Below are positions 10,219 to 14,439 of a stretch of DNA of 35,638 nt, piece after piece. Where the stretch lies: the NCBI GenBank assembly GCA_020845855.1, contig JADLEZ010000333.1:1-35638 (forward strand). Reading direction: 5' to 3'. Source of the stretch: Burkholderiales bacterium (GTDB taxonomy: Bacteria; Pseudomonadota; Gammaproteobacteria; Burkholderiales; Casimicrobiaceae). Position 1 is the first letter of the stretch, and each line of letters begins with the position of its first letter. Made by a program: the position numbers and the translations under genes. The notes below the pieces were generated by a model that made no database searches, was not told the DNA's origin, and saw only the letters and a program-made list of their open reading frames with translations.

Positions 10219-10652
10219 AGACCGCGACCCCCAACGCGCGCAATGCCGAACTCGCGCGCATTCACATCGCGAAGGCGCAACTCGGCCTTGCCGACGACAC
10301 CTATCGGGCCACCATTCGGGGGATCTCCAACCAGCGCACCGACTCGGCGAAGGATCTCGACTATGGCGAGCGGGCCAAGCTTCTCGAGCACCTGCGGCGG
10401 CTGGGTTTTCGCGACCGCGGCGCGTTGCCGTCGCGGCAAGCGGCCGCGGCCAAGCAGGCGCTGATCGACAAGATTCACGCCCATCTCGCGACGGCGAGCC
10501 GGCCCTGGGCGTACGCCGATGGCATGGCGCGGCGCATGTTTCGCATCGAGCGCGTGGACTGGCTCACCCCGCAGCAACTGCACAAGCTGGTGGCGGCCTT
10601 CGAGTACGACGCCAAGCGCCGGGCCCGCAAGGCGGCGGAGGTCGGCGCGTGA
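10215..10652 (+). CDS. Mu gp16-like protein (DUF1018)
   Basis: This 145-aa protein matches the gp16/GemA-type DUF1018 family. Features are an N-terminal helix with IHIAKAQLGLADDTYRATI (about 16-34), the TDSAKDL segment, and a C-terminal block with WAYADGMARRMF and a WLTPQQLHKLVAAFEYD helix. GemA in Mu modulates host gene expression and DNA supercoiling, and the family is a signature of Mu-like early/middle regions, nearly always next to mor. The gene is coupled by 4-base overlaps to its neighbours on both sides. Confidence 0.92.
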   Translation: MKTATPNARNAELARIHIAKAQLGLADDTYRATIRGISNQRTDSAKDLDYGERAKLLEHLRRLGFRDRGALPSRQAAAAKQALIDKIHAHLATASRPWAYADGMARRMFRIERVDWLTPQQLHKLVAAFEYDAKRRARKAAEVGA

Positions 10653-11056
10653 CGGCGGTCGAGGCGAACCTCGACGAGCTGCCCGCCGGAATGCGCGACC
10701 TGGTCGCGCTCATCGGCTTGCGCCCGGCGTTAAAGCTGGTCGATGCCTTCGGCGGTATAACGCTGCCGATCCCGAAGGGCGATGCCGCCCGTGGCGTGGT
10801 GCGCCGGGAGAGTCTCATCGAGGTCATCGGCGTGCGCGCCACCGAGTTGCTGATCGACACTTACGGCGGCGATCGTCTGTACGTGCCGTCGTGCCGGGCG
10901 GCGATGCTGCAATTGCGCGATCGCGAGATCTGTGCACAATATGGGGCGGGCGTCGGGGTCGCCGAGCTCGCCATCAAGTACCGCCTCTCCGATCGACACA
11001 TCTGGTCGATCCTGAAGAAGACCGACGTCAGCAGTCCGCAGGCGTCCCTCTTCTAG
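10649..11056 (+). CDS. mor: Mor-type transcription activator (Mor/C family)
   Basis: This 135-aa regulator starts at GTG 10649, overlapping gp16. It has the Mor/C layout. An N-terminal dimerisation domain contains LPAGMRDLVALIGLRPALKL. A strand segment with GGDRLYVPSCR follows. The C-terminal HTH has REICAQYGAGVGVAELAIKY and a recognition helix SDRHIWSILKK (to about residue 125). In Mu, Mor activates the middle promoter and its relative C activates late promoters. Only one family member exists here, so it may do both jobs, with its target just downstream. Confidence 0.93.
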   Translation: MTAVEANLDELPAGMRDLVALIGLRPALKLVDAFGGITLPIPKGDAARGVVRRESLIEVIGVRATELLIDTYGGDRLYVPSCRAAMLQLRDREICAQYGAGVGVAELAIKYRLSDRHIWSILKKTDVSSPQASLF

Positions 11057-12757: not shown

Positions 12758-12887
12758 GGCGGCGACCTTGGCGCGGGCGCTCATCGACGATGCGCAAGCC
12801 TACCGGGCCTGCGCCGATCGCCATCGGCGGCTGGTGGAGGTGGCGCAGTTCCGGCGGACCTTGAAGGAGATCGAACATGCGCAGTGA
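12591..12887 (+). CDS. Rz1: Rz1-like outer-membrane lipoprotein spanin (o-spanin), nested in Rz
   Basis: This 98-aa lipoprotein is encoded in another frame within and beyond Rz. It has a basic start, a hydrophobic stretch and the lipobox LTSC with lipidated Cys24, followed by a proline-rich segment (PVQYPPLDPSLTQPCPPLAP). This is the hallmark of Rz1 proteins. It continues into a helical tail longer than lambda Rz1. Together with Rz it would fuse inner and outer membranes in the last lysis step. GTG 12591 is preferred for its AAGGAG at 12579-12584. Its end overlaps the next lipoprotein gene by 11 bases. Confidence 0.9.
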   Translation: MSSPRKWMRNLIWPLVSASMLTSCASLTQIEPVQYPPLDPSLTQPCPPLAPVADGKAATLARALIDDAQAYRACADRHRRLVEVAQFRRTLKEIEHAQ

Positions 12888-13176
12888 AGACGGATGGTGT
12901 GCCGCGCGGATCACCTTGTTGCTGGCCGTCGCGATCGCTCTGGTGGTGCTTGGCGGTTGCGCCAACGTGCAGAGCAAGGATTACGCGGCGTACCTGGCGG
13001 CATCGCAGAGCGCGGCCAGCAAGGCCGCCGAGCCGGTGTTGCGCATCCGCGCGCAGCCTGGACAGACGATCGAATTCCGCGGGGTCGAGGTGCTCGAAAT
13101 CTACGCGCCGGCGGCCGGCAATCCGGCGACGGCGATCGCCCCGCCGGCGGCGGTCACCAGCAAGGGGCGGGAGTAG
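12877..13176 (+). CDS. Small lipoprotein adjacent to spanins
   Basis: This 99-aa protein has a signal peptide (residues about 10-27) ending in the lipobox LGGC with Cys28, then a helical NVQSKDYAAYLAASQSAA segment and a strand-rich tail with RAQPGQTIEFRGVEVLEIYA. AAGGAG at 12864-12869 supports ATG 12877. Its position beside Rz1 suggests an envelope role in lysis or lysogenic conversion, but it is not itself a spanin by sequence. Confidence 0.8.
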   Translation: MRSEDGWCAARITLLLAVAIALVVLGGCANVQSKDYAAYLAASQSAASKAAEPVLRIRAQPGQTIEFRGVEVLEIYAPAAGNPATAIAPPAAVTSKGRE

Positions 13177-13178
13177 CC

Positions 13179-13403
13179 ATGCACGACGGTCAGTCCACGA
13201 GTCACGCCTACTACGACTTCGACCAGGCCACGATCGATCTTGCCAAGGAGATCCTGGCGCACGCCGAGGCGGCCCGCGACCTTCTCGACGCGCTGGCGGC
13301 ACATCCGGGGTCGAGCCTGCGCTGTCTTGACGTCGCGCGCACCAGTCTGCAGCGCGGCTTCAACGCGGCGGCGCGGGCGATCACCGTCGCCACCACATCA
13401 TGA
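13179..13403 (+). CDS. Acb2-like small helical protein, putative anti-CBASS cyclic-nucleotide sponge
   Basis: This 74-aa protein begins with a Tyr pair (HAYYDF), then two long helices. The second half follows a pattern I associate with the Acb2 family: a Gly loop, an Arg, an A-R-T-x-L-Q-x-G-F turn (RTSLQRGFNAAARAI, about 54-68) and a hydrophobic end. Acb2 proteins, known from T4-like phages and from B3-like transposable phages such as PaMx33, bind cyclic di- and trinucleotides and block CBASS effectors. The gene lies in the accessory pocket between lysis and terminase genes. The match is by pattern recall, not alignment, so it is provisional. It could also be an unrelated helical hairpin. Confidence 0.62.
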   Translation: MHDGQSTSHAYYDFDQATIDLAKEILAHAEAARDLLDALAAHPGSSLRCLDVARTSLQRGFNAAARAITVATTS

Positions 13404-13424: not shown

Positions 13425-13634
13425 ATGGACATCGTCGATCAAGCGGAGGCGCTCGCCGAACACGAGCGCGAGCGAGGCATTGCCGCGGCGCGGGCCCGCG
13501 CCGCGGTGATGGTGGAGTGGAGCCCAACGTGTCTCAACTGCGACGAGCCGACGCCCGCGGGCGCGCGTTGGTGCGATCCCGCTTGTCGCGACGACTATCT
13601 GCGCCGGATGGCGTGCCAGGCGACGGACGAGTGA
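13425..13634 (+). CDS. TraR/DksA-like small zinc-ribbon protein
   Basis: This 69-aa protein has a helical N-terminus starting MDIVDQAEALAEHERERGIA, resembling the D-x-A acidic start of TraR/DksA proteins. A four-Cys ribbon follows (CLNC and CDPAC, residues about 37-55). TraR binds RNA polymerase through its secondary channel and alters promoter use. The ribbon here is more compact than DksA's, so it may instead be a generic phage zinc ribbon. TGATG joins it to the next gene. Confidence 0.68.
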   Translation: MDIVDQAEALAEHERERGIAAARARAAVMVEWSPTCLNCDEPTPAGARWCDPACRDDYLRRMACQATDE

Positions 13635-13945
13635 TGCACCAGGATCAGATCCTCCTCGAATTGGGCAAGATCGCCGGCAAGTTGGGCGAGGTCGCCAATA
13701 CGCAGGGCCTGATGATGCAGCAGTTGAACGTGGTGGGCGACGGCCAGGCCCGCATCATCGGCGAGATCGGCGAGCTGCGCGGGACGCAGGTCGAGCATGG
13801 CCGACGGCTGCAGAAGAACGAGGCCGACATCTCGGGCCTCAAGACGCAGAGCACGCGCAATGCCACCCTGATCGGCGCCCTGGCCGGGACCGGGGTCACC
13901 ATCATCGCCGAGGGCATCCGGCAGTTCCTGCGCATGAAAAGCTGA
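13634..13945 (+). CDS. Coiled-coil protein with C-terminal hydrophobic helix
   Basis: This 103-aa protein is helical with heptad spacing over about residues 5-70 (QILLELGKIAGKLGEVANTQ). It then has a hydrophobic segment near 78-95 (TLIGALAGTGVTIIAEGI) that may be a membrane anchor. It occupies the slot of Mu's small genes just before the small terminase (gp25/26-type). Its role is unknown. Its start and stop overlap the flanking genes. Confidence 0.72.
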   Translation: MHQDQILLELGKIAGKLGEVANTQGLMMQQLNVVGDGQARIIGEIGELRGTQVEHGRRLQKNEADISGLKTQSTRNATLIGALAGTGVTIIAEGIRQFLRMKS

Positions 13946-14439
13946 TGAACCGCAAGGACAAGCGCGCGGCGGCACGCGCCGCCTACGTCTTCGAGGGGCT
14001 CGACGCCAAGACCATCGAGCGGCGCCTGCGCGCGCCGTCGCGCACGCTGTATCGCTGGCGCAAGGAGGCGCTCCTCAAGGGCGACGACTGGGACGCCGCG
14101 CGGGCGGCGATGCGCCTGTCGAGCCGCGGCGAGGAGATCCTCGCCGCCAACGTGTTGGAAGACTTCGTCTTCCTCTTCACGGCCACGATGAATGACGTCA
14201 AGCGCTCGTCGCTCACCCCGATGCAGAAGGTGGAGACGCTGTCCAAGCTGTCCGACGCCTACGGCAAGACGACGGCGGCGGTGCGCCGCTCCAATCCCGC
14301 GTTGTCGAAGCTCGCCGTGGCGATGGAAGTGCTCGATCTGCTGGCCGACTTCGTGCGGCGGCGGGCGCCGCAAGGTGCGCCGGCGCTCCTGCAGGTGCTC
14401 GAACCCTTTGGCGCCGAGCTCGCGGCCAAGCTGCAGTGA
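13945..14439 (+). CDS. Small terminase subunit (DUF1804 family)
   Basis: This 164-aa protein fits the DUF1804 family of Mu-like phages. It starts with a basic HTH (AARAAYVFEGLDAKTIERRL and RTLYRWRKEAL), followed by GDDWDAARAA, which is characteristic of the family. A helical oligomerisation region ends in LADFVRRRAP. Small terminases recognise the packaging site and hand DNA to the large subunit; in Mu-type phages the site lies near the left end and packaging is headful into host DNA. It overlaps the large subunit gene by 4 bases. Confidence 0.88.
   Translation: MNRKDKRAAARAAYVFEGLDAKTIERRLRAPSRTLYRWRKEALLKGDDWDAARAAMRLSSRGEEILAANVLEDFVFLFTATMNDVKRSSLTPMQKVETLSKLSDAYGKTTAAVRRSNPALSKLAVAMEVLDLLADFVRRRAPQGAPALLQVLEPFGAELAAKLQ

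Follow-up and report, generated by a model that had tools for sequence, protein, structure and literature searches.

A diverged Acb2-family hairpin gene in the late region of a Mu-like phage or prophage

The window analysed here is a stretch of 35,638 nucleotides and represents a whole contig (C333) of a Burkholderiales assembly (G000; 695 contigs totalling 5.84 Mb, with a completeness of 96.5% and a contamination of 8.1%). The window was found to encode a Mu-type transposase, an AAA/TniB-like ATPase which we label MuB-like from its position, GemA, Mor and a transglycosylase, along with a Mu portal, MuF, a virion morphogenesis protein and a tail terminator. A holin was also present and the match to an Rz-like protein was weak (E 0.006). 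This gene set indicated that the window belongs to a Mu-like phage or prophage. The Mu-like part of the original prediction was thus borne out. For a betaproteobacterial host there is only a hint, in that related terminases occur at 37 genome loci and many of these, though not all, bear organism names pointing to such a host.

The gene under study lies at 13179-13403 on the forward strand and encodes a protein of 74 residues (MHDGQSTSHAYYDFDQ...ARAITVATTS) assigned to the Acb2/Tad1 hairpin family. The open reading frame occupies exactly the interval and strand predicted earlier. Its G+C content at codon positions 1, 2 and 3 (0.68/0.52/0.83) matches that of the neighbouring genes, such as terL (0.69/0.44/0.90), and it was confirmed as a real gene. 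A purine-rich segment, AAGGGGCGGGAG (13162-13173, +), is placed 6-17 nucleotides upstream of the ATG, inside the 3' end of the upstream gene, and may act as the ribosome-binding site. No promoter-like sites were found between 10500 and 14500, and terminator-like sites in this region were at chance level (2 against a mean of 1.8).

The neighbouring genes for which coordinates are given here are on the forward strand. The upstream gene (12877-13176) encodes 99 residues with a lipoprotein-like N-terminus (LGGC, recognised by eye) and gave no family above cut-off. The downstream gene (13425-13634) encodes a DksA-like zinc finger protein (phrog_54), for which no relatives were found in the viral_contigs collection. 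This gene and a gene for 104 residues without a Pfam family separate the acb2-like gene from a DNA-binding protein gene (DUF1804, phrog_756; 13945-14439), which precedes the terminase. On the other side lies the Mor-family transcription activator (10649-11056), upstream of the lysis genes. The acb2-like gene therefore has Mor and the lysis genes on its 5' side and DUF1804 and the terminase on its 3' side. From this position, expression in late lytic transcription, as in Mu, may be expected. It would fit the view, given in a review, that Acb2 acts upon induction and not during lysogeny (PMC12043709).

The relationship of the protein to Acb2 was analysed by profile searches. The original prediction had asked for a match to Acb2/Vs.4 profiles, and such a match was obtained. 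The protein scored 30.5 bits against Pfam PF24729 (Acb2_Tad1_hairpin), for which the curated cut-off is 27, and it matched the PHROG 717 profile with an E value of 2.2e-4. PHROG 717 is the group holding the Vs.4 homologues, as stated in PMC10097602. A profile of 12 Acb2 sequences gave an ungapped match to residues 9-69 with 36.6 bits, while the best of 5000 composition-preserving shuffles reached 9.7 bits and the best other open reading frame of the window 8.0 bits. This profile consisted of 11 phage records and one genome sequence (G439), obtained from Pfam hits, other Acb2 queries and annotation; one of its members, from phage MQM1, entered the set following a match to the window protein, though another Acb2 query had listed it earlier. 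With a larger profile built from 42 sequences, from which the window protein was left out, the score was 41.5 bits and the best shuffle reached 12.3 bits; this set is less independent, as part of it was collected with a profile containing the window protein. Among the 42 are 26 canonical relatives and three members of a second hairpin type. The resemblance of the 74-residue protein to Acb2 exceeds chance, and the profile matches show its homology to Acb2 and support its membership in the Acb2/Tad1 hairpin family.

The direct comparisons indicated strong divergence. In blastp, the nine best canonical Acb2 loci were matched with 31-38% identity (E 1e-8 to 7e-8), and the identity to the 26 relatives was 20-35%. 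Among phage records, a single match was obtained at E<=10, to the Acb2 homologue from Aeromonas phage MQM1, with an E value of 0.8. A profile of the window protein with the 26 relatives matched PaP2 p26 (E 2.6e-26) and T4 Vs.4 (E 5e-5), with the relatives carrying most of the score. No close relatives of this variant were found in phages (E<=0.01), in plasmids (E<=1) or, at E<=1e-3, among the stretches of viral_contigs and genome_contigs matching six short peptides of the protein (60 and 595, respectively). A search of 399 genomes of the order with the window protein (E<=0.05) gave matches in 28 of them and listed 29 places, comprising the window, one Acb2 homologue (G439) and 27 others judged as noise on the listing alone. 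No family was assigned to the protein by PADLOC and NCBIfam. Two leucine-rich-repeat proteins and BGL15, obtained in a single-sequence search of the PDB, were rejected as composition matches, and the Pfam match to DUF6416 was under the cut-off of that family.

The structure of the protein was predicted as a single chain using AlphaFold2. With the 26 relatives the model was a two-helix hairpin with a mean pLDDT of 80.7, in which the definition was poor over residues 1-10 and in the tail. Helix 1 was predicted at residues 16-41 (13224-13301, +) both with and without the alignment. Helix 2 was predicted at residues 47-70 (13317-13388, +) and contains RTSLQRGF and R66; without the alignment it extended over residues 47-72 and the mean pLDDT was 77.0. 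The predicted fold is thus the expected two-helix hairpin and no different fold appeared. In Foldseek searches of the PDB with the alignment-based model, Acb2 chains were the top three matches, all weak (E 1.0-2.1; the best with E 1.0 and TM 0.61). In the viral library the same model found five proteins named as Acb2/Tad1 hairpins in the best 50 of 294 matches, all weak and amid many unrelated proteins. With the alignment-free model no Acb2 was present among the best 50 of 212 matches, and generic helical hairpins were matched. As these matches are weak and generic, the fold agrees with Acb2 yet does not discriminate it from other hairpins.

The residues of the ligand pocket and of the hexamer were compared on an alignment of the 42 homologues and the window protein. 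According to PMC10097602, the cGAMP contacts of T4 Vs.4 (PDB 7UQ2) are Y8, F82, H11, K23 and R79, with Y8 stacking on the cyclic dinucleotide, and L29, A66, A73 and A77 are needed for the hexamer. The stacking tyrosine (T4 Y8, PaP2 Y11) is kept as Tyr11 (codon 13209-13211, +) and is Tyr in 37 of the 42 homologues; with Tyr12 it forms the N-terminal tyrosine pair noted in the original prediction. The pocket arginine (T4 R79) is kept as Arg66 (codon 13374-13376, +), being Arg in 39 and Lys in 3 of the 42. The conserved Arg/Ala end claimed earlier therefore holds for this arginine, whereas the usual P-x-x-F tail of the family (P71, Pro in 37/42; F74, Phe in 30/42) is lost. The LQ-x-G-F motif is present as LQRGF at residues 57-61; AlphaFold2, however, places it inside helix 2 and not in a turn. 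T55 corresponds to T4 T68 and is kept; T68M is said in PMC12657230 to lower binding. Among the hexamer positions, A53 (T4 A66) and A64 (T4 A77; Leu in 32/42) are kept, the position of T4 A73 is G60 (Gly in 35/42) and that of L29 is A32, which is smaller than the usual Val, Leu or Ile.

The most prominent change is at the pocket lysine (T4 K23, PaP2 K26), which is Lys in all 42 homologues and is Leu26 in the window protein (codon 13254-13256, +). The position of T4 H11 is Phe14 (Leu in 37/42), that of F82 is Thr69 (Ala in 36/42 and Phe in only 2/42), that of N20 is Lys23 (Asn in 39/42) and that of M75 is Asn62 (Met in 41/42). Further, unlike T4 Vs.4, the window protein has no inter-helix insertion and its tail is different. 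Compared with PaP2 Acb2 (p26; PDB 8H2J, 8H2X), it is without K26 and the PDSF tail and is shorter (74 against 93 residues). The 26 canonical relatives share 16 invariant positions. The window protein keeps five of these (Y11, R48, G60, F61 and R66) and departs from the other 11, with conservative replacements at two (I52V, K59R). Part of the invariance in helix 2 stems from the retrieval, since most of these relatives were fetched by peptide patterns, including KGFMALVR and WIAIGKTD, from the Acb2 of a Mu-like contig described below (L037).

Position 26 was also compared in 12 further members of the hairpin family taken from whole genomes, two of them shared with the set of 42. Lys was found in nine, Arg in two short, distant proteins (L234, L237) and Asn in one (L010), which indicated that Lys marks Acb2 proper and not every hairpin protein. 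In the four most distant hairpin sequences the alignment places no Tyr at position 11. The window protein, as aligned, resembles Acb2 proper at Y11 and across helix 2, and the distant hairpins in its lack of the lysine. Separately, four genomes belonging to a single genus were seen to carry Acb2-like genes (G064, G113, G157 and G196; L002 at 1468-1701, L007, L008 and L009), in which His replaces the stacking Tyr (GHKPLN). The gene of L002 adjoins genes for a flavoprotein (UbiX-like by eye) and DUF2390, and may encode a chromosomal Acb2-like protein.

The occurrence of Acb2 in the same region of other Mu-like phages was analysed next to the DUF1804 and terminase genes. Scans with the DUF1804 protein, the terminase (80 of 124 viral matches taken) and the portal gave 147 loci (11+80+37+19), with some regions present in both collections. 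An Acb2 reading frame was found in one of the 147 (L037), many of which are too short to span the slot of the gene. A scan with the L037 Acb2 gave 35 loci, four of which (L172-L175) carry Acb2 directly upstream of the DUF1804-like gene and terL. L172 is the same contig as L037, and L173 and L174 encode an identical protein, so that four contigs carry three distinct proteins. Altogether 112 loci had more than 1500 bases before the DUF1804-like frame; with the four from the Acb2 query set aside, Acb2 was present in one of 108 (L037). Canonical Acb2 at this place in L037 and L173-L175 points to a rare but recurrent gene in the late region of Mu-like phages. These contigs are like the window in that the gene lies in the late region, shortly followed by a DUF1804-like gene and by the same type of terL. 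They differ from it in that their Acb2 is canonical, with K26 and P-x-x-F, and abuts the DUF1804-like gene, where the window has two genes between; in L037 a DUF2730 gene and another reading frame precede Acb2. An Acb2 homologue was also found near the head genes of Beetrevirus SS2019XII, a member of a genus of transposable phages. Together with the Mu-like contigs, this agrees with the earlier statement that Acb2 is known from transposable phages.

The best explanation, to which a probability of about 0.7 is given, is that the gene encodes a diverged Acb2-family hairpin protein, probably hexameric, which acts in the lytic phase by sequestering cyclic oligonucleotides of CBASS-type or related defences. 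The gene, its homology, the predicted hairpin and the shared late-region position are the observations from which this reading starts. The two-helix hairpin would probably assemble as a hexamer, like T4 Vs.4 and PaP2 Acb2. It would be produced alongside the lysis and head proteins in lytic growth, and the hexamer would sequester the cyclic oligonucleotides used as alarm signals by the host defences. Binding of cyclic nucleotides and inhibition of CBASS by the protein are what we infer. Having lost both the pocket lysine and the P-x-x-F tail, the protein may differ from canonical Acb2 in its ligand range.

An altered ligand range leads to the alternative that survives best, which overlaps the preferred reading and is held as a tentative possibility. 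Here the dinucleotide pocket would lose the usual dinucleotides, and the separate trinucleotide site at the trimer interface, or a re-formed pocket, would take another signal. Leucine in place of the lysine of all 42 homologues is in accordance with this, as is Lys23, which replaces an asparagine three residues, or one helical turn, earlier. According to the review, Acb2 binds di- and trinucleotides at sites that do not depend on each other, and the spectrum varies among homologues (PMC12043709). Retention of Y11 and R66 of the dinucleotide pocket speaks against it. That the sponge has been re-tuned to capture a signal other than those of known Acb2 proteins, for example trinucleotides only or one that avoids Panoptes-type guards, is considered quite unlikely. 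In E. coli carrying Panoptes (optSE) on a plasmid, T4 Acb2 arrests colony growth and its binding mutant Y8A has no such effect (PMC12657218).

It is also unlikely, though the loss of 11 of the 16 canonical-invariant positions gives it some weight, that the protein is an Acb2 descendant which no longer binds nucleotides and either is in decay or has been put to new use as a small helical hairpin with a structural or regulatory role. The intact reading frame, its normal codon-position composition and the several ligand and packing positions that are kept argue against such a loss, and purifying selection is beyond what a single sequence without close relatives can show. The absence of a SMODS CD-NTase from the host assembly would be in line with it. 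No SMODS CD-NTase was found in that assembly, and three of the 100 genomes searched (the host assembly included) have one; the search matched 3 of 14 control genomes. This absence says little, because the phage may meet other hosts and the contamination of the bin blurs the host link. A search for host CBASS with SAVED matched no control genome and was uninformative.

Chance similarity of an unrelated two-helix protein, for which the commonness of helical hairpins and the weak Foldseek matches could be cited, is highly improbable given the curated Pfam cut-off passed, the profile score of 36.6 bits against 9.7 for shuffles and the known Acb2 genes in the same genomic region of related Mu-like phages. 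That the protein is of the Tad1 type, in which a beta domain precedes the hairpin, can practically be set aside: PF24729 by its name covers Tad1 hairpins and the frame is open upstream to an ATG at 12894, but this open frame overlaps the lipoprotein-like gene at 12877-13176, which lies in another frame with gene-like codon-position composition, and the 74-residue product has space for the hairpin only. It shares this hairpin domain with Tad1, in which an N-terminal beta sheet is also present according to PMC12043709.

If the diverged Acb2-family protein binds cyclic nucleotides, the known range of Acb2 would widen to include a highly diverged sequence from Mu-like phages. The pocket lysine would then be dispensable or movable, which would aid the prediction of active Acb2 relatives and of their signals. 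Otherwise the gene is one more entry in a family known from hundreds of phage records. One Acb2 query matched 223 phage records, and 198 Vs.4 homologues are counted in PMC10097602. The literature search, which covered few subscription papers, gave no paper joining Acb2, Mu-like and prophage, and no title on Acb2 in a Mu-like phage was among the matches listed. The gene is a diverged addition to a family already common in phages and priority is not claimed.

In whole genomes, PF24729 at E<=0.001 was found in 3 of 100 relatives, 8 of 399 genomes of the order and 8 of 369 of the class, each count including the host assembly. Some minor observations were made on hairpin proteins elsewhere. One genome (G046) has two hairpin-family genes (L003, 1495-1746; L005, 1489-1734), of which one exceeds the Pfam cut-off and the other falls short of it; both represent a second type with W/F-A-V-K near the end. 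The L003 protein as a query matched 82 phage records, of which 78 were from Flavobacterium, and Enterobacter phage EcP1 was also matched. A larger frame in L011 (1000-1668) has a possible C-terminal hairpin (21 bits, under the PF24729 cut-off), perhaps in a Tad1-like arrangement. In Rhizobium phage RHph_X2_26 (L149, 420-1225) a TIR-domain gene is directly followed by an Acb2-like gene. The Acb2 homologues of Pseudomonas phages, including a Beetrevirus, at L142 (2980-3306), L143 (2980-3267) and L144 (1480-1710) are annotated as 'NAD/FAD-utilizing enzyme', which is apparently an inherited misnaming.
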